NCBI GenBank assembly: GCA_012840015.1
Contig: DUMF01000010.1
Coordinates: 1 to 64,000, forward strand
From: Bacillota bacterium
GTDB lineage: Bacteria; Bacillota; Sulfobacillia; DUMF01
Length of the DNA stretch: 64,000 nt
Direction of reading: 5' to 3'
Shown: positions 4,429-29,276 of the stretch, piece after piece
How positions within the stretch are numbered: the first letter of the stretch is position 1
Layout: each line of letters starts with the position of its first letter
Program-made: the position numbers and the translations under genes
Notes under the pieces: model-generated
Told to the model about the DNA's origin: nothing
The model's database searches: none
What the model saw: the letters and a program-made list of their open reading frames with translations, nothing else

Positions 4429-5694
4429 ATGCACCGAGCAGTGCGCAATACGGAGGAGGTAACTTCCGTGGGACGCAGGCAGAAAACAACCATGACCCTG
4501 ATAACAGTTCTCGGTGTTACTGTGGTAGCTATCGGGCTGGTTGCTCTATGTGTGCTGGGACTAAGAATAGGCTATCCGGGTAACGCTCCCCTCTCCTATC
4601 GCATTAAGTGGCTGCTCACTAATAAGCCCTATTACACTGTAGAGAGAAGATTGCCAAACGGAACTATTGTAAACATTGATCCAGGTCGCGCTTACATAGA
4701 CAAGCAAGCAGAAGCAGCAGCGAGGGTACTTTCGGGCGTCAGCCCAGAAGACTTGCAGAGCGTAAACAGCTTCGTCCGGCAGGCCCATTTCCAGCTAAAC
4801 GATCTGGTTGCTTCAGGTCACCATAGGCGATTTACGGATAATTCAACGTGGGCTTCAAGTTCGAAAGAGTATCTGTGGGAAAGAAGAGTTAAGGAGTACG
4901 TGAGCGGCGAGGGTGAGATGAACCTTGTTGCCCGTGCTCGGGAGACAGCAGAAAAAGTTGGATCAAAGGACTTGAAGGCTGACTTGGAAACATTTTCTCG
5001 AACACTGCAACTTGCTTACGAGAAGAAGGACGTTCAGTTGCTGATACTAGCTCACCGCATCGTCCATGACCTTGACTATTGGGTGTTTGGTAACGAGACG
5101 TTCGAGTCTCGAGATTACTGGGGAGCCACCTTTACTCTTGAGGGTAAAAGCAACTCTGTCAATCGGCTGCTTGAAGGCATGCCTGACTACAGGGAGATAA
5201 TCCTACCAGATGACAGACAACTAGAGGACACCTCCCAAAGTTTGAACGACAAGAAACTCATTCAAGTCGTTGTAAAACGAGGCAATGACGTTTTCTCTTT
5301 TGGTACTCCATTCCAGTTCAGCGGTTTCGGAATTGTATCAGACATTCAACGCTTATTGTGGGTAGCCTCGAGGGGTGGTGCTGGCATAGAACCGGAAACC
5401 AGGCAAGTAGAGTCGAAAGAACTCGACACAGTCCTAGAAACCGGAGCTAAACTGAGGAAACCTTTTTGCTTCGTTCATCTCATTTATAAGCCATATCATC
5501 CGATGCAGGGAATGAACGATACAGCCCACAAGGACCTGATCGTCTATACAGATCCACGCAATGCAAACGACGCTTATTTAGCTGTCCAGAACCCAGATAA
5601 CGAAACTAGATGGAGTTTATACCGTTTACCGGATTACGCGCAATGGCTCAAAAAGGAGGTCGACCTCCTCTTACGGATACATACGGGACTGTAA
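4429..5694 (+). CDS. Hypothetical membrane-anchored protein with an uncharacterised conserved domain (paralogue at 36281..36903)
   Basis: 421 aa intact ORF, N-terminal TM. Conserved block VKEYVxGxGEMxLxARAR...LLILAHRIVHDLDYWVF shared with the 36.3 kb locus. Confidence 0.85.
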   Translation: MHRAVRNTEEVTSVGRRQKTTMTLITVLGVTVVAIGLVALCVLGLRIGYPGNAPLSYRIKWLLTNKPYYTVERRLPNGTIVNIDPGRAYIDKQAEAAARVLSGVSPEDLQSVNSFVRQAHFQLNDLVASGHHRRFTDNSTWASSSKEYLWERRVKEYVSGEGEMNLVARARETAEKVGSKDLKADLETFSRTLQLAYEKKDVQLLILAHRIVHDLDYWVFGNETFESRDYWGATFTLEGKSNSVNRLLEGMPDYREIILPDDRQLEDTSQSLNDKKLIQVVVKRGNDVFSFGTPFQFSGFGIVSDIQRLLWVASRGGAGIEPETRQVESKELDTVLETGAKLRKPFCFVHLIYKPYHPMQGMNDTAHKDLIVYTDPRNANDAYLAVQNPDNETRWSLYRLPDYAQWLKKEVDLLLRIHTGL

Positions 5695-10288: not shown

Positions 10289-10974
10289 CTACTGTGGGAG
10301 GTACGCACCTTCGTAGGGATAGTTCACCTCTGAAACTAGCCATTTCCTGCAGCCTGCTACCTCGTCATCCCACTCGGTTACGACTACCCTTGCGCTGTAC
10401 TCCGCAGCATAGCCCGTTGAAGCCACCATCCGGAACCTGATTTCGTAAGTATAGATCCCATCCTTTGTCCCACGCACGTCACCGCATAGGACTCCACCCA
10501 CGGGCTAGACACCCCGGTGACCCAGCCGCAACGCTCGAAAGCAGACCTGCACCTGGCACGCAGTTCGGGCGAGAGCAAAGCAAACTGCAACGCGCCGTTG
10601 CGCTCCTTTGACAGCTCTCGCCCAGGTGTGCGCACCCATGCCGGGCTCTCGAGCCGAAGGCCCCTCTCCAGCATCACCGCCCTGCGCTCAGCAGCATCCA
10701 CAACGGCGCTCTTGGACTGCTGGCTTGCAACTATCACAGTGCGCGTGGTTTCATCCCACTCAACTCGAGCCCCCAGCGCCTCTGCCACCCACCTCAACGG
10801 CACCATCACGCGACCGTCGATCAGCCGCGGAGCCACATCGGGCAGGATCTCCCGCCCGTCAACCACAAGCCTGATACCTTCTTCCGCCATGGCTCCGGAC
10901 CCGGCAAAAACTACAAGCCCAACAATAACCATAGCTGCGACACCCAATGCCCGCAACCTTGCGCTTACAAGCAA
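10289..10974 (-). pseudogene. Copper amine oxidase N-terminal-like (stalk domain) protein, frameshifted
   Basis: IRLVVDGREILPDVAPRLIDGRVMVPLRWVAEALGARVEWDETTRTVIV. The C-terminal part is in a different frame (10289..10501). Confidence 0.7.
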
Positions 10975-21249: not shown

Positions 21250-22619
21250 TACCTCGCCAAAACTCCCTTCATGCCCGCCAGCGAAAAATAGTTCAGCCAG
21301 CCACAAAGCTACGAGTTGATCCGCGCGATTCGTTCGTCCATGCTGACCCCACACGTGCGTGAAAACCCTTGTAAAAACTAAAGCCCGGGAACTCCCGATT
21401 CCATGCCCGGTCCACGGCGCTCTTTTGCTGGTTCACCTTCAGCCTCAGTCGCCTCTCGAGAACCCGGCTCGCCGGCTCCGTACGTGAATGTTAACATCGC
21501 CCGCATAGCGTACGAACCGGTGGCCGCGCTTCTCCAGCTCCAGTCGAGGTCGTCCAACAGGATGTTGGCAAGCAGCAGGCTCAGGGGGCCGCCCTGCGGC
21601 GTCCCTTCCCCCCGCTCCACTACCACCCCGTTGACCATCACCCCCGCCTGGACCCGCTCGTCCTGAACACTGCGGGCCACCCGGGCCATGAGAATTCGTG
21701 GTTGACCCGGTCGAAAAACTTCTCCAGGTCCACCACCCAGTCAAAGCCCGCCTCCGTGTACAGGCGCGCCATCCGAACCGCCTCCCCGGCACTCCGGTTG
21801 CGTCGATACCCATAGCTCCCCCCGAGAATGTCGGGTCAAAGATCGACGTCAGCACCTGCAACACTGCCTGCTGGATCAGGCGGCCTAAAACGCTCGGTAT
21901 CCCCAACTGCCGCACGCCTCCCCCGGGTTTCGGGATTCCGACCCGGCGTACCGGCGCGGGCTTATAGCTCCCCTCAAGCAGTCGCCTGCCGATTTCAGGC
22001 CAAACACCCCGCAGCTGTCCGCGGAGTCCTTCCACCCTCATTCCGTCCACGGCCCGCAGCGCCTTTGTTCTGCTCCACCCGCTTAAGCGCGAAAATCATG
22101 TTCTCGCGGACCACCACCTGTTCCATTAGGTCGCTACATGTTACCTCGCGGGATGATCCTCCGGTCCCCTCCCAGGGTTTCCCGCTCTCCTCGCCCGCCA
22201 CTCGAACGCACCGGCTCACCCATTCCTTCGTGTTCGGCCCTTCACGTCAGGTCATAGCCCCGCCGGTACTACGGCCTCCGCTGACGTCTGCCGGCTCAAT
22301 CGGGCCTTGCAGCCCGGCTTACCAGCCTTGCTGGCCTTCCCGGCAGACCTCCCCGGGTGAGAACGAGCACTTTCCCCGTACACCCGCCACGCCTACACCG
22401 CCGCCCTTCGGCCAATCTCGGGCTTCGCCTTGTATTGCAGGCTCACCCAGGCGACGTTGCCTCCCTCGTGGTTCGTGTTCCTCGGGTCGCGGCTTTGCCT
22501 CCGGCTCCCTTCGGATTCCGCGTTCGCCGCACACACCCTTGCACTCGGGCTAACGGTTCTACGTGGCCACTGCCCGTAAGGGACTTCCACCCTCTAGCAC
22601 TCGCCCATGCCGGGCGCAC
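21250..22619 (-). mobile_element. Truncated/degenerate group II intron with reverse transcriptase remnant
   Basis: Minus strand starts GTGCGCCCGGCATGGGCG (5' end near 22619), followed by intron RNA-like sequence. RT: MDGMRVEGLRGQLRGVWPEIGRRLLEGSYKPAPVRRVGIPKPGGGVRQLGIPSVLGRLIQQAVLQVL..., FVRYAGDVNIHVRS, LRLKVNQQKSAVDRAWNREFPGF. 3' part eroded. Confidence 0.85.
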
Positions 22620-22739
22620 AATAATACGCCACCTCCGGGAGGAAGGAGGCGAGGAAATACAAAAAACCCTCGACCGGTGCGTGAGCCACATCATTCTTTA
22701 CGACTACCGGTGCGAGGTTGTCCTGATTTTCGGATATGG

Positions 22740-22799
22740 TGGTGTCGGGAGCGGGACTTGAACCCGCACGGTGTTCACCATACGCCCCTCAAACGTACG
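22740..22799 (-). repeat. 60-bp duplicate of the tRNA-Leu(GAG) 3' end (distal attachment site)
   Basis: Identical to 29192..29251; the rest of the tRNA is absent here. Confidence 0.95.
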
Positions 22800-22943
22800 G
22801 GCAAACCGCACTTACCAACATCGCCCGCTTGTGGGCAGTTTTGCTTTGCCGCTGCCCTGCCAAGACCACACGCCTCTCACTTTTAACTTTTCATCTGCGG
22901 CGAATCGTGTGGTATACTCCGACGCCACTGGACAGAATCCTGC

Positions 22944-23171
22944 TCAAGCGAGAAGGTTTTTGAACTCGTCAACGGTTAGTCCAGCCTGTCTTAAGATAGA
23001 CCTCAAAACCTCCTGCTTTATGTCCCTGTTACCGTGATAAGGAACAACAGTCCTTCTGCCGTCTGGGTGGCGGAGAATGTAATGGCTGCCGGTCACATGG
23101 TCAACCTCAAAGCCAAGTTTCTGCAGGGCGGCAATGACTTCCCTCGCCTTAAGAACAGGTAGCTTCACCAT
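22944..23171 (-). CDS. hicA: HicA-type mRNA interferase toxin
   Basis: KAREVIAALQKLGFEVDHVTGSHYILRHPDGRRTVVPYHGNRDIKQEVLRSILRQAGLT. Confidence 0.95.
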   Translation of the reverse strand: MVKLPVLKAREVIAALQKLGFEVDHVTGSHYILRHPDGRRTVVPYHGNRDIKQEVLRSILRQAGLTVDEFKNLLA

Positions 23172-23173
23172 AT

Positions 23174-23419
23174 TTAGGCTACGTCCACTGTAATAGTCTC
23201 TACTTCCGCTTTCTCAAAGCCAAAGGGTAGCGGCTCTCCATGTTTTTTCAGACTCTCGATGTACCCTCTTATGGCGTCCTCAGCCATTGCCAAAGCTTCT
23301 TCCTTAGTCTCCCCCTGCGTGACGCAACCCGGTAGTGCCGGTACAGAAGCAATATAGCCTCCTTCTTCGGCGGGTTCGATGTAGACAATAAAGCGGGCCA
23401 CGTGCTCCCCTCCTAACAC
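23174..23419 (-). CDS. hicB: HicB-type antitoxin
   Basis: FIVYIEPAEEGGYIASVPALPGCVTQGETKEEALAMAEDAIRGYIESLKKHGEPLP. Confidence 0.95.
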   Translation of the reverse strand: MLGGEHVARFIVYIEPAEEGGYIASVPALPGCVTQGETKEEALAMAEDAIRGYIESLKKHGEPLPFGFEKAEVETITVDVA

Positions 23420-23460
23420 GTATTCCAGTCGCTACATAGTATGCCTTGGTTAAGTAAGTC

Positions 23461-24591
23461 TTAGCTTTCCTGTGGGCAAAATCCTGCACAGGTTTTAGGT
23501 TTTCGGAGTGACTTCTCCTCACGGAGCTGGTTACTCTGGTCTGTAAAACAGTCGCTGGCGTGCGGTCCCCGTATTCTCTTCATGACGTCGAAATAGGCCT
23601 TCTTCGCACCATTCCAGGTGCGAAGGGGCTTATCTGGATGCCGCTGATTGAATTCGTTCCGAATCGTCTCCCAGAAAACCGATGCACCCTCCTGACCTTT
23701 CGACGGCGGACCTCCGCAGTCGTTGACCAGCCTCCATATGGTGGCGTGGCAATCATTGAACGCTTTCTTTTTGATCTTTCCAAAGAACTCATTCAGTTGG
23801 CCTCTAAGGCTCGTCCATTCAGCTTGAGACAAATTCGCTCTGAACGTGACGGTTAGCTGCTTGGCTGTCAAGCCTGGAACTGTAACCCCTTCGTATTCAA
23901 GCTCATTACAGCAACAGAGAGACGTACGGGTGGTAACTGGCGGTACCAACGGTTTTCTGCCTGTTAGAATCCAGCCCACAACCCCAGCTTGAGAGAAACC
24001 TGTCCCCTCGCTGACCCTGCGGCTCCAATACTCGAGTAAGCTGAGAGGGGTTTTTGCCCAAATTGGGACACGATGGACCCAACCATCTTCTCCGGGATAC
24101 GGCAATGAGCGGGTCTCGAGCCATACACCAAGGTCGTACTTCAGGCTGAGTTCCCTGACTAACTCATACGCTTTACGTCGCTCCTCCCCGTACTCCGCTA
24201 GCTTTCGCTGGCGTTCTTGTTCGGCCGTCCTCTCTATCCACTCTCCTGCCTCGCGGATTGAAGAGAACGGCGGTTCTTCAGTGGAGAACAGTTTCTTGCG
24301 TAGTACCTTACATAATGGCAATAGGTCCGCCAGCAGCATCTCGCTATTGATGATTGCTGAAAAGGCCAGTGACTTGTGCAGGGGGCTACCATCCGCGGCA
24401 TCTTCATCATCATTTATGTACCGTTCCTGGTACTTCCTCGCTTGTTCTATCACTGCTGAAACATCAGAGCGATAAACCTGCCCGCCCTTCAACGAGCAAA
24501 TATCTTCGCATGCCCACTTGAGATACTCCGACCCTCTCAAATCAGGAGGTGCTTTTTCTTCCGAAAGCCTCATCAGTTCTTGTTTAGTCAT
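23461..24591 (-). CDS. Element-encoded hypothetical protein (376 aa)
   Basis: Long intact ORF divergent from the XRE gene; no recognised family. Confidence 0.8.
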   Translation of the reverse strand: MTKQELMRLSEEKAPPDLRGSEYLKWACEDICSLKGGQVYRSDVSAVIEQARKYQERYINDDEDAADGSPLHKSLAFSAIINSEMLLADLLPLCKVLRKKLFSTEEPPFSSIREAGEWIERTAEQERQRKLAEYGEERRKAYELVRELSLKYDLGVWLETRSLPYPGEDGWVHRVPIWAKTPLSLLEYWSRRVSEGTGFSQAGVVGWILTGRKPLVPPVTTRTSLCCCNELEYEGVTVPGLTAKQLTVTFRANLSQAEWTSLRGQLNEFFGKIKKKAFNDCHATIWRLVNDCGGPPSKGQEGASVFWETIRNEFNQRHPDKPLRTWNGAKKAYFDVMKRIRGPHASDCFTDQSNQLREEKSLRKPKTCAGFCPQES

Positions 24592-24685
24592 AAGTCAGCC
24601 CCCCGTGAACAGTCTGCACTTTTCTTTTGTTCACTATTCCATGATCATTGGCACGAGCACAATCACTAAAGCAGGAGGGGAAGAC

Positions 24686-24901
24686 ATGCTTACAAATCTT
24701 CGAGTGCTGCGGGTCCGGTCAGGCCTCAAGGCATCAGAGCTGGCCAGGAGGCTGGGACTCGCAGAAACCATGCTGATTCGGATCGAGCTGGCCCAGGCGT
24801 ATGTTCCGCCCAAGTGGCGTCGTCCTCTGGCGGAGGCCCTGGGAGTAGAACCGGAGGCGATTATGGACCCCGCGACGGGGTGGCCGAAGTTGGCCGCCTA
24901 A
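24686..24901 (+). CDS. XRE-family HTH regulator
   Basis: MLTNLRVLRVRSGLKASELARRLGLAETMLIRIELAQAYVPPKWRRPLAEALGVE, preceded by AGGAGGGG. Confidence 0.88.
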   Translation: MLTNLRVLRVRSGLKASELARRLGLAETMLIRIELAQAYVPPKWRRPLAEALGVEPEAIMDPATGWPKLAA

Positions 24902-24934
24902 ACGTAACCTAACCACAAAAAAGAAGAGGCCGGG

Positions 24935-25333
24935 TTGCCGCCCGGCTTGGAGGAGAGCCTAAATGGAGAGATCACCAAAAAGATTCCTGTCCATGCTTGT
25001 GTTGCCGGTCGTTGGGTCGTCGTCGGATCCCTCACCCCCGGCGACCCGCCGGTCTTCACCCAGAAGGTTGGCCCCAGCGATATTCTCCGCATCCGGGGCA
25101 GTGCGGGGATCGATCTCCGATATGATCCCCCTCTGCCTGAAAGCTGCCTGATCCGCCACATCGTCGGCAGCACGGCCTACGAGATCCGGCTCAGTGCACT
25201 CAAAAATCATCCGAAGACCTCCATTGCCCAAATCGGCCCGATGCACCCACGTAGAGCCTATCTGCCATACCGGTACTGGCGTTGCCTAGGCGAACCCGAA
25301 CAGCTCTCGTTCTTCGGGGGGTTTGCGTCATGA
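24935..25333 (+). CDS. Hypothetical protein
   Basis: 132 aa ORF; its stop overlaps the start region of the primase-like gene (ATGAGTG). Confidence 0.55.
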   Translation: MPPGLEESLNGEITKKIPVHACVAGRWVVVGSLTPGDPPVFTQKVGPSDILRIRGSAGIDLRYDPPLPESCLIRHIVGSTAYEIRLSALKNHPKTSIAQIGPMHPRRAYLPYRYWRCLGEPEQLSFFGGFAS

Positions 25334-27085
25334 GTGCCGTTGCCCCGTGCGACCTCCCCCGCGGTCGTGTCACATACCGCGGTCCTTGGTGGACACCCAG
25401 GCGTTCCGCCGTCCGCACAAAACGGAAAGTGGATCAACCTCCATGATCAGTATGTCCTGAAGGTCATGGAAGGTCAAACCCTGAACGTTTCGCCTGTGGA
25501 TGCGAAGGGAAGATGTCACGCACTAGTTTGGGACATAGACGCCGGTGAAGAAGGGAACGTGCAAAAACTCCTCTCCGTGCTTCCCGAGGGTTGCCGTCCC
25601 CTCGTGTCGCTCAGCGGGAAAAAAGGCTGGCACGTCTGGTTACTTCCCGAACGGCCCATCTCGGTCAGTGATGCCCTCATCATCGGAAAGGGACGTTCGA
25701 GAAAGAAGCGGTGTCAAATGCGAATTCTTCCCAACCGGCAGAAACTCAAGACTGATAAAGTGGCCGGGGTCCCTACATCCCGAAACAAGAGTGCGGGAAG
25801 TGTTCGTGCCCCCGGATGTATTAAACGGCGAAGAAACATTTGACACGGCGTTAGTCTTCCAACTCTTGTCCGAAGGGAAGTACCGAACCCCCGTCAAGTC
25901 TCTTGTCGTATCTCGCTCGACGACTATTCGACGACTATTCGACGAATCGTCAACCGGTTGCCAGCAAAGCGAAAGTGATCCCATGCCTACAGAGCCCGAA
26001 GAGACGGTCCTGGGCAAGCCACTGCCTCCATCTGTCGCAGATGATACTCCGGTCATGCTCGTGGAAAGCCTTGGGGCTCTCACTCGGAGCGAAACAGTTG
26101 TCAACGCGTTGATGCAGCTGGCGGGAAGAGAGCTCGTGCGTTTGGGCAAGAGTTTCAGGTGCATACTCCACAAGGAAAGCAGCCCTTCTGCATCGTGGTA
26201 CAGGGAACCCAAAAACGGGACCATTGTTTATCGTGACTGGCATGCCTCAAAGTATGGTACTCCAGAGGTTCTGCTCCTCGGTGAGGTCTTTTGCGCCTTG
26301 TGCACCGGCGAGGTAAAGAAACTGAAACCACATGAAACTGGGAGGTGGCTGGCGAAACTGGCATTGAGACTCGGATACAGGACACCTCTGGCACTTGAAG
26401 TTGAAGCATTGATGGCGACAGCGACGACCAAAATTGACGCACTCTCCCTCAAAAAGCCTAAAACCCCCCGCCCGAACAATATATTTACCAGTTGTTTGTA
26501 CAACCCGAAGTGGAGATTGAGAAAGGAGATGACGGGGATCCCCAGGTCATTGAGAAAGTATGGCGGGTTTTCTGTGATGAAGCCCTTCTCTCCGCCATGT
26601 CAGGCTTCGGTGAAGTGAAACTAGCCGGCAGGTGGCTTTCAAAACGTGCACGGGTCCCCTTGGATATGGCTAACCGTGCGGTGAACCTCCTGTGTGCCTT
26701 AGGCATCCTCTCAAAAGTGCCGGGGACAGGAGGAATGCGTGGAGACAGGTTTATTTTCGGAGACGCTGATATCAGCGAGGTCGAGAGACGTTGGAAAGCC
26801 TTGGGTAAGCCGTCCCTCAGACGTTTTAACCGAACCCTGGTAATCGAAAGGCTTGGTGAGGACATAGCAAATAGCCTCTTCAGGAGAACTCCCGATGGCA
26901 AACTGATTCGGCCCAAGGCCGTTCGCGATCAACCGGCATCAGGCGATGTCACGCGGGAAGATACCGTCATACCCTCCGAGGACATACCAAGGCTTTCCGT
27001 CTTGGTCCCGGCGGCCACCGGAAAGGTCCTGAATAGTTTTGGTGAGACACTGGTAAGGGTCCGCCATGGGTTTGCTATGGGTTAA
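25334..27085 (+). pseudogene. Archaeo-eukaryotic primase (AEP/PrimPol-like) replication protein with downstream zinc-finger-like and C-terminal parts, split in three frames
   Basis: ORF1 ALVWDIDAGEE (hhhDhD) and SGKKGWHVWLL (SxxxxxHxW). ORF2 KWPGSLHPETRVREVF. ORF3 26492..27085 continues in the frame of ORF1. Confidence 0.7.
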
Positions 27086-27088
27086 GTG

Positions 27089-27127
27089 ACCGTTCCCGAA
27101 CGGTTTGCCAAACTGTTCGGGAACGGT
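27089..27127. repeat. 18-bp inverted repeat/hairpin downstream of the primase-like gene
   Basis: ACCGTTCCCGAACGGTTT-GCC-AAACTGTTCGGGAACGGT, one mismatch (G-U compatible). Confidence 0.85.
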
Positions 27128-27613
27128 TGTACGAACGCTTAAGCTAACCGTGTGCAACTCAGATGCACTCCTTCTGCACCCCTTATGATCTCAATAGACT
27201 ATGTGAAGTCATCGGACGCAAAGCGTACCCCCCCCTTTGCGGAAACTTGCGGCCGCGTACGCGTGACTGGCCGCACGGTCTCGGAAGGCTGAGCTCCAGA
27301 GTTTTTGTATCCCCCATATTCCCAGGAGTAACCACTCCTCTAAAATGCCCTGAGAAAGGCTTTTTCAAGAGCGGCTGAAAAAGGGGCTCTTACCCCATCA
27401 CGGAAACCGAATCTAGACCCCTCTGCGTGGGTTCTGGACGGCTTAGAGGTTGCGGTGAGGCTGAATTCCTGATCGTTTTTTACATTCATTTCTCCAATCT
27501 TTCCGCTATTTTGGGGAAGGCTTTCTCCAGACCTTTTGTTCGTCCTTATCGGGTAGGAGGCGGTGTCTCTCCAAGGACACCGCCTCCCCCGCTTACCAAT
27601 CCTCAAGCGAACC

Positions 27614-27916
27614 TCAAGCGTCTTCCGCCTTGACGTTGGGAAAGGCTTCTTCAAACGGGACCTTTTTCTCGGGAGGGTCTTCGAACAGCCTGATGGCCTC
27701 CTCCTGGCTGACTGGTTCGAGGTAGTCCCTCTCACCCTGCCAGCAGTGTTGATGTTGGACGAAGTAGTTTCCCCTGGGAGTCTTGAAAAGGAACGTGTTC
27801 CTGCCTTGTCGTTCCCAATTGTGGCCGTCCCAGTAAGCATCCGAAGCAAGGAGTGTAGCTGTCTCCGTCTTATAACGCTTCCCGCCGATTACCACATTCA
27901 TCATGATGGGGTTCAT
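27614..27916 (-). CDS. Conserved hypothetical protein
   Basis: GRNTFLFKTPRGNYFVQHQHCWQGERDYLEPVSQEEAIRLFEDPPEKKVPFEEAFP. Confidence 0.7.
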   Translation of the reverse strand: MNPIMMNVVIGGKRYKTETATLLASDAYWDGHNWERQGRNTFLFKTPRGNYFVQHQHCWQGERDYLEPVSQEEAIRLFEDPPEKKVPFEEAFPNVKAEDA

Positions 27917-28083
27917 CTTCTATGCCTCCCTTCCCGGGCCCTGCCGGGTTTAGTCGGAACGGAACCATGCCGTAACTGCTCGTTGCCTAGGTGCTCTTTT
28001 CCTTCAATCCTTCCACCTCTCTTGAGAAACCCTGCTTCGATAACAGCCATAGTGCTTCCGTTTACACCTCCTTTTAGTAAGCG

Positions 28084-29006
28084 TCAATAGAGACCCCCTT
28101 TTATCTTGCGGACCCGGTTTCTCCGGGGTAGCAACGCGTTCACGGGTGATGCCAGCGAGTGCTGCTGCCTCAGGTCGTCCTGAGTTATGGCAATGTAACA
28201 ATGCTGAGGTCCGAATGGCCCATTATCCGCTGCAACGCAAAAGCGTTCCCTCCACAACGGAGGAATTGCAGTGCAAAGGCGTGCCGTAGGTCGTAAGGGT
28301 GGATGCGGATACCCAGGGCCTTGCTGTACTTCTCCAGCCTGTCGTCCCAGGTATCGTTGCGTAGCGGGGTTCCTTCCGAAGAGCAGAAGACTGGGACATG
28401 CTCTCCCCACGAAAGGTGCCTCGCAGCAAGCAGCAGGCGTAGGGCCTCTGCTGTCGCAGTGGATACCGGCAAAGTTCTGGAGACTTTGGTCTTGGCAACG
28501 TCTGAACGGACATAGACTTCCATTGAACGGAGGTTTATGTCGTCCTGAAGGAGCGAAAACGCCTCCTTAGGACGAATGCCGGTATCCAGCGTAAGCAGAA
28601 TCAAGGCATAATCCCTGAGGCCGGCAAAAGTATTCTTGTTGGGGAGGCTGATGAGCCTGGAGAGGGTCTCGGCGTCGAGAGGTACGATTCTGCCCTCGTC
28701 TTTCCGCTTCTTGAAACCGTCCAGAGGGTTATCGGCGAAGAATCCCTCCTTAACGCACCAGTCAAAGAATTGCTTCAAGTAGTTACGCCGGATGTTGTAG
28801 GTGGCGGGCTTTATATCCTCCCCGAAAAAGCAATACACCGCTTGCTGGAGTTTTTGCCCTCCCTGCCACGCTTCGGGGTGACGCCTGAAGAAAAGTCTTG
28901 TCACGTCTCCATGTCCCTTGAGAGTGATAGGCCTCAGGCCTTGTGCCTGCTTGAACTGAAGGTACAGCTGCACGGCTTCTTCCCAGGTGGCAGGGACGCG
29001 TTGCAA
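28084..29006 (-). pseudogene. Tyrosine recombinase/integrase with frameshift at the catalytic Tyr segment
   Basis: ORF 28185..29006 has RPKEA, YDLRHAFA and MGHSDLSIVTL then stops. The C-terminal YIAITQDDLRQQHSLASPVNALL is in another frame (28084..28410). Confidence 0.88.
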
Positions 29007-29191
29007 AGCGGATTACTCTTGCCCTTGGCATGAAACATTCCTCCTGCGATCCTGTCACCGCAGGAGACGTGTGGTGTTTGGGGATCTCGCCACCACCATA
29101 CGTCTGGAATGTTCCCAGCGAGCTGGCACGATTCTTGCGTGGAGAATAATTGAACCCGCAATCCTTGGCAGGAGCGGGTTTTCGCTCGTTA

Positions 29192-29276
29192 TGGTGTCGG
29201 GAGCGGGACTTGAACCCGCACGGTGTTCACCATACGCCCCTCAAACGTACGCGTCTGCCAGTTCCGCCATCCCGAC
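29192..29276 (-). tRNA. tRNA-Leu(GAG)
   Basis: Reverse complement GTCGGGATGGCGGAACTGGCAGACGCGTACGTTTGAGGGGCG...GGTTCAAGTCCCGCTCCCGACACCA; CCA encoded. Confidence 0.95.

Follow-up and report, generated by a model that had tools for sequence, protein, structure and literature searches.

The locus considered here lies in a 64,000-nt stretch of DNA from a Bacillota bacterium (GenBank assembly GCA_012840015.1, contig DUMF01000010.1, positions 1 to 64,000; hereafter the window), in which a segment of about 6.5 kb adjoins a tRNA-Leu(GAG) gene and carries genes for a tyrosine recombinase (integrase), an archaeo-eukaryotic primase (AEP), an XRE/Cro-type regulator and a HicBA toxin–antitoxin pair. It raises the questions of whether this segment is an integrative element, whether it still functions, and how elements of this type would move between hosts. 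We conclude that the window element is very likely a decayed copy of a family of small tRNA-integrated elements found in several Bacillota-type genomes.

Attachment repeats and element boundaries

The segment is bounded by a perfect 60-nt direct repeat with a start-to-start spacing of 6452 bp, a match far beyond chance within 64 kb. Repeat searches, ARAGORN and Rfam uphold what an initial annotation, made from the sequence alone, had proposed: the right copy is part of a complete tRNA-Leu(GAG), the left copy consists of the tRNA 3' end alone in the same orientation, and the integrase gene lies just inside the intact tRNA, also in its orientation (Table 1). The element carries a copy of the tRNA 3' end, so that the tRNA stays whole on integration; the 5' part of the intact gene is chromosomal and the 3' 60 nt were contributed by the element. 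The originally proposed interval of 22740-29276 takes in both repeats and extends over the 5' portion of the tRNA, which derives from the host and lies beyond the element. The element proper consists of the interior and a single copy of the repeat, which places it at about 22740-29191 or 22800-29251. Composition would not have revealed it, because GC content is 54.1% inside the element and 54.6% outside.

A family of tRNA-integrated elements

We searched with the intact AEP protein in 154 genomes of the same class and then in a 399-genome sample of the phylum. Besides the element's own genome, strong homologues were identified in G053, G035 and G101 (same class) and in G398 and G311 of the phylum sample, the latter with two loci; this gives six further loci sharing the primase, in five genomes of the same phylum. 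Partial matches in G085, G109, G111 and G467 were left out of this count.

Two of the relatives are complete. The G035 element (L047) is bounded by a 75-nt repeat at tRNA-Glu(UUC), 8266 bp apart, and runs from the tRNA through the integrase and a 100-aa protein (orf100), then AEP, a protein of ~125 aa (orf132) and XRE, then a zinc-finger open reading frame (ORF), to the tRNA fragment; the G101 element (L048) has an 83-nt repeat at tRNA-Leu(UAA), 5599 bp apart, and only five recognisable genes. The other four loci are cut by contig ends. In G053 (L023), a tRNA-Glu 3' fragment stands at one end, and orf100, a 628-codon open AEP frame, orf132 and XRE are present, with the contig ending beyond orf100. 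One G311 locus (L068) has a tRNA-Phe-like fragment at one end and no integrase was found before the contig end, and the other (L069) has a tRNA-Glu fragment adjoining spoIIE and a contig that ends inside AEP; which tRNA each fragment in L023, L068 and L069 belongs to was judged by eye. In G398 (L067), the integrase lies beside tRNA-SeC and AEP near the other contig end, and orf132 and XRE were not found there. Wherever contigs permit comparison, the relatives keep the gene order of the window copy, and a tRNA or tRNA fragment is present at every relative whose contig reaches the element end; no relative with these genes was seen to lack one there.

Because the same cassette occurs in other genomes and both complete relatives are bounded by tRNA 3'-end repeats, an integrative element at tRNA-Leu(GAG) is strongly supported; in the two complete relatives the cassette is found at other tRNAs, tRNA-Glu(UUC) and tRNA-Leu(UAA). 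The family core consists of XRE, orf132 and AEP on one strand, followed by the integrase; orf100 is present in three loci. At the sensitivity used, AEP, orf132 and orf100 had no homologue in plasmid (72,556 plasmids for AEP and orf132), phage or IMG/VR viral collections, and a plasmid-collection DNA search with the element gave a match confined to the tRNA region. Judged by the collections and papers searched, short of a full literature search, the family is apparently undescribed.

The small size could be thought to reflect a truncated prophage or larger element that has lost its structural genes, given that the integrase subfamily is shared with prophage-like contigs and that decay is present in the window copy. 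However, the complete relatives are equally small, with the same compact order and both ends present, so that small size is the state of the family; we consider truncation very improbable and rejected it.

Decay of the integrase and primase

The window copy is a relic, a term already offered by the initial annotation, although the frameshifts in both the integrase and the primase were missed there. The main integrase frame stops shortly after MGHSDLSIV, where an alignment with intact relatives shows MGH.....MTKRYV, the Y being the catalytic Tyr; the corresponding C-terminal piece is in another frame (Table 1), and alignment gaps near 29000 suggest that the N-terminal residues likewise appear out of frame. 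The catalytic Tyr is thus not in frame in the window integrase, whereas it is intact in the G035 and G101 relatives. The primase aligns piecewise with the intact G053 protein: its frame shifts by a single base near 25420 and again near 25691, and an out-of-frame indel follows near 26470. Substitutions between the two AEP genes fall at codon positions 1, 2 and 3 at 21, 16 and 40%, and the gene therefore evolved under protein-level constraint. Having lost both an in-frame Tyr and an unbroken primase, the window copy is very unlikely to be excised by its own integrase.

The apparent pseudogenes could instead be sequencing or assembly errors in an active element; in the primase, two shifts involve one base each, and HicBA, XRE, orf132 and orf100 are open. 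Nevertheless, several shifts fall within just two genes, one of them at the catalytic Tyr region and not homopolymer-like in appearance, whereas the flanking FtsH, TilS and SpoIIE genes are uninterrupted, with family matches along their length. Error is a poor explanation for shifts so confined, and an active element is quite improbable.

The primase and the gene inventory

The primase named in the initial annotation stands, with its type now specified as AEP (PF22548) as distinct from DnaG. The window pseudogene retains the motifs DxD, SGKKGWH and WPGSLHPET, and an alignment of five open AEP proteins shows the shared residues D68/D70, S95-G-x-x-G-x-H101 and W144-P-x-x-x-H149. These fit AEP motifs I (DxD), II (His) and III, with WPxxxHP as a candidate motif III by eye. 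The Pfam AEP-TOTE family (PF22548) is above cut-off for the G035 protein only (7.3e-8), the best solved structure by sequence is CRISPR-associated Prim-Pol (CAPP; PDB 7nqf; E 1e-5), and an NCBIfam PrimPol_Msp match is far below cut-off. No helicase domain was matched in AEP, and no cas family among the subset of ORFs scanned; PADLOC reported no defence family, only weak PrimPol matches. Downstream of the catalytic motifs, the alignment read by eye suggests a CHC2-type zinc finger in a C-x-x-H-like stretch and a winged-helix-like fold in the C-terminal third. At a separate locus (L050, 1-14096), an integrase and a protein that shares only the zinc-finger-like part of AEP lie between identical copies of tRNA-Lys spaced 14 kb apart.

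From the intact tRNA inward, the window copy has the order integrase, orf100, a palindrome, AEP preceded by orf132 and XRE, orf376, HicB, HicA and the tRNA fragment, with AEP, orf132 and XRE on the forward strand and the other genes on the reverse strand. The annotated XRE regulator and HicAB pair were both recovered by profile searches (Table 1). Among the 154 class genomes, orf100 is present in three, and orf132 (54-66% identical across five related loci) in the same four that have strong AEP matches. For orf376 no homologue was found within the class genomes, and neither orf376 nor orf132 has a Pfam or NCBIfam match; AlphaFold models from single sequences had mean pLDDT values (41 and 34, respectively) too low for use. 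Searches of the window element ORFs (Pfam, PHROGs) matched no capsid or packaging gene, and Pfam scans of these ORFs and the main ORFs of the relatives matched no relaxase or conjugation gene. The earlier remark that no capsid or conjugation genes are recognisable therefore holds for the window copy, and it holds also for the smallest intact relative (5.6 kb).

Table 1. Features of the window element and its ends (positions in the window)
Feature	Position	Strand	Evidence or remark
Hairpin and T-run beyond distal tRNA fragment	22650-22725	-	Sequence; whole fold no better than shuffles (z -0.94)
Distal attachment-site copy (displaced 3' fragment of original tRNA-Leu)	22740-22799	-	60-nt perfect direct repeat
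HicA toxin, intact	22944-23171	-	PF07927 3.6e-22
HicB antitoxin, intact	23174-23419	-	PF15919 2.5e-11 (HicB-like)
orf376, divergent from XRE	23461-24591	-	Slot holding zinc-finger or other proteins in relatives
XRE/Cro-type regulator	24686-24901	+	HTH_31 5.9e-8; ATG at 24686; conserved in six loci
orf132, core protein directly upstream of primase	24935-25333	+	Start uncertain, homology from near 24959
AEP primase, pseudogene	25331-27085	+	Three frames (25334-25843, 25545-26618, 26492-27085); PF22548 2.3e-4
Long palindrome directly after primase	27087-27128	.	Inverted repeat; fold -33.7 kcal/mol, z -6.9
orf100, conserved small protein	27614-27916	-	Identity 90% to the G053 and 68% to the G035 copy; PHROG 38278 1.4e-6
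Integrase C-terminal piece with catalytic Tyr region, another frame	28102-28200	-	Profile positions 279-311, E 1.3e-7
Tyrosine recombinase, pseudogene	28185-29006	-	Pfam Phage_integrase 1.2e-26; PHROG integrase 3.1e-38
Hairpin just downstream of intact tRNA-Leu(GAG)	29153-29180 (about)	-	Fold -16.1 kcal/mol, z -2.9
Integrase-side attachment-site copy, within intact tRNA-Leu(GAG)	29192-29251	-	60-nt perfect direct repeat
Intact tRNA-Leu(GAG)	29192-29276	-	ARAGORN; Rfam tRNA 29195-29276

Several repeats occur inside the elements. The palindrome directly after the window primase is a candidate terminator or replication-origin hairpin, judging by its predicted fold. Between AEP and the integrase, the G101 element (L048) has iteron-like arrays of 12-, 10- and 12-bp units (10537-10632 and 10725-10896), a candidate replication origin, and the G398 locus (L067) has two 31-nt repeats (GTTTCTATTCCNGCAGTGGGTGCGGTAATAC) 69 nt apart (4711-4810) that occur nowhere else in its genome. 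Inside the G035 element (L047, 13391-13489) there is a CRISPR-like unit of a single spacer and two repeats, type I-C-like as far as can be told by eye; an 18-nt pattern used to look for further copies in the G035 genome found none, and the spacer had no convincing viral match.

Sequences at the element ends

Upstream of the intact tRNA-Leu(GAG) is a perfect sigma-70-type promoter (TTGACA-17-TATAAT; 29358-29330, reverse strand). The hairpin just downstream of this tRNA lies on the element side, and the element has therefore probably supplied the terminator as well as the tRNA end. The tRNA and hairpin have an 86% DNA match in G085, where a similar hairpin follows the tRNA-Leu(GAG) and no integrase of this type was found nearby; a reading of 29124-29191 as host sequence common to G085 was narrowed to this common tRNA terminator hairpin. 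Beyond the distal tRNA fragment, the hairpin and T-run may possibly be the displaced original tRNA terminator, weak as the fold evidence is (Table 1). A sequence matching the sigma-54 -24/-12 consensus (TGGCACGATTCTTGC; 29124-29138, forward strand) is directed at the tRNA, with 0.02 such matches expected by chance in the window. At the distal end of several loci, a sigma-H-like motif (CTTGAGCAGGATT...GGCGAAT) was noted by eye, and strict patterns, whose spacing was possibly wrong, were unmatched in the loci and in the element's own genome. Directly left of the element are group II intron domains (22237-22533, reverse strand; Rfam RF01998 and RF02001), and further left are broken reverse-transcriptase-like ORFs recognised by eye, the one scanned having no Pfam match.

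Apparent mosaicism and HicBA exchange

The closest integrase to that of the window is encoded beside tRNA-Leu(GAG) on contig C7 of G035 (68% identical), where a 20-kb stretch showed no match to the other element proteins. The AEP element of G035 is on another contig, C2, at tRNA-Glu, and has an integrase 47% identical to the window's. Between G398 and G101, the integrases are 62% identical and the AEPs 35% identical. Judged from these pairwise identities, integrase and core appear to have been exchanged among elements. Further integrase relatives occur in Paenibacillus and Heliobacterium.

The HicBA cargo shows a similar mobility. The window HicBA DNA is 92% identical to that of G311 (L069) over 23218-23493 and 95% over 22933-22988, with the middle of the G311 pair coming from another HicBA. 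The window DNA also matches, at 87% identity, a G053 pair enclosed by two tRNA-Gly(CCC) copies 1344 bp apart; changes between the window and G053 HicB are mostly third-position (5, 4 and 29 by codon position). Identities of 87-95% to copies in two other genera indicate that the cargo moved recently, and exchange between genera suggests a toxin–antitoxin pair travelling at the ends of such elements. The G053 tRNA-Gly(CCC) pair (L024, 6340-7758) encloses HicBA and possible integrase remnants, and is perhaps a collapsed element. In the window, HicBA has stayed intact while the mobility genes decayed, possibly since toxin–antitoxin loss is selected against.

Proposed life cycle and transfer

In the intact relatives, a recombinase crossover inside the tRNA repeat would excise a circle, on which the AEP would prime, and may polymerise, perhaps within the region, rich in repeats, that separates primase from integrase; host helicase and polymerase would complete replication, XRE would control the divergent operons, and the circle would move with the aid of a helper.

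Four points weigh against reading the window element as a decayed member of such a family. Neither an excised circle nor an attP or an empty syntenic site was seen, the comparison genomes including none of the same family; replication, regulation and origin are inferred from gene content; the AEP match of the window fragment is weak by sequence alone; and assembly error could account for part of the frameshifts, notably the two single-base shifts in the primase.

Transfer as a phage satellite or other hitchhiker is possible, and two more specific proposals would fill in this step. In the first, the elements are minimal phage satellites that excise, replicate by means of the AEP and travel in the particles of a helper tailed phage; the window copy would be a dead one. 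Their size (5.6-8.3 kb) and content of integrase, regulator, primase, small unknown proteins and cargo resemble PICMI, a six-gene phage satellite of Vibrionaceae without capsid-remodelling genes (PMC10803314), and the closest IMG/VR integrases are 50-60% identical, one on a contig where inspection by eye picks out ORFs resembling terminase and capsid genes. A common integrase on its own proves nothing, however, no terminase, capsid-size or AlpA-like gene was recognised, and no homologue of AEP or orf132 was found in the phage and viral collections; we regard packaging as possible but rather doubtful. In the second proposal, the elements are mobilisable plasmid-like episomes moved in trans by a conjugative element via an oriT. 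AEP primases are common in integrated conjugative and mobilisable elements (PMC5862659), and the iteron-like 12-bp repeats of the G101 element (L048, 10537-10632) would suit such an episome, yet no relaxase or oriT was identified, and no homologue of AEP or orf132 was found among the 72,556 plasmids; we hold this route to be equally tentative. A broader proposal, which sees in the family a new type of minimal Bacillota hitchhiker (down to five recognisable genes and 5.6 kb) built on AEP, swapping integrases among at least four tRNA genes (Leu-GAG, Leu-UAA, Glu-UUC and Phe-like, with SeC a likely fifth) and moving as phage satellites, is in this full form unlikely.

Whatever the mover, a decayed window copy and its relatives make up a compact, comparable set in which integrase and cargo can be swapped around a conserved replication core, and thus a tractable test of the minimal size of a self-replicating integrative element and of what moves it.

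Comparison with known systems

The closest precedent is the class iii of cryptic AEP-encoding integrated elements (Kazlauskas et al., 2018; PMC5862659). As in the cryptic PrimPol-PV1 elements of that study, AEP and integrase are combined with direct repeats, often at tRNA genes, and with no phage or conjugation genes. The present family differs in that its AEP is closest to the AEP-TOTE and CAPP models, has no recognised helicase domain and belongs to a fixed XRE-orf132-AEP core. PICMI (PMC10803314) is similar in its minimal size, its combination of integrase, regulator and primase, and its lack of capsid-remodelling genes. Nevertheless, it has AlpA, a DUF3987/DUF5906 primase and a fis site, whereas the present family has XRE, AEP and tRNA sites; Pfam scans, covering ORFs of the window and the main ORFs of the relatives, matched neither AlpA nor the DUF3987/DUF5906 primase. 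The IMG/VR prophage-like contigs (L071-L074) share an integrase 50-60% identical to the window's, but are 13.5-69 kb long, and no other element protein was matched in the stretches examined. With CAPP (PDB 7nqf; PMC8211822) the family shares the AEP catalytic core, but no Cas genes were seen among the ORFs scanned, and the primase gene is instead part of a tRNA-integrated element.

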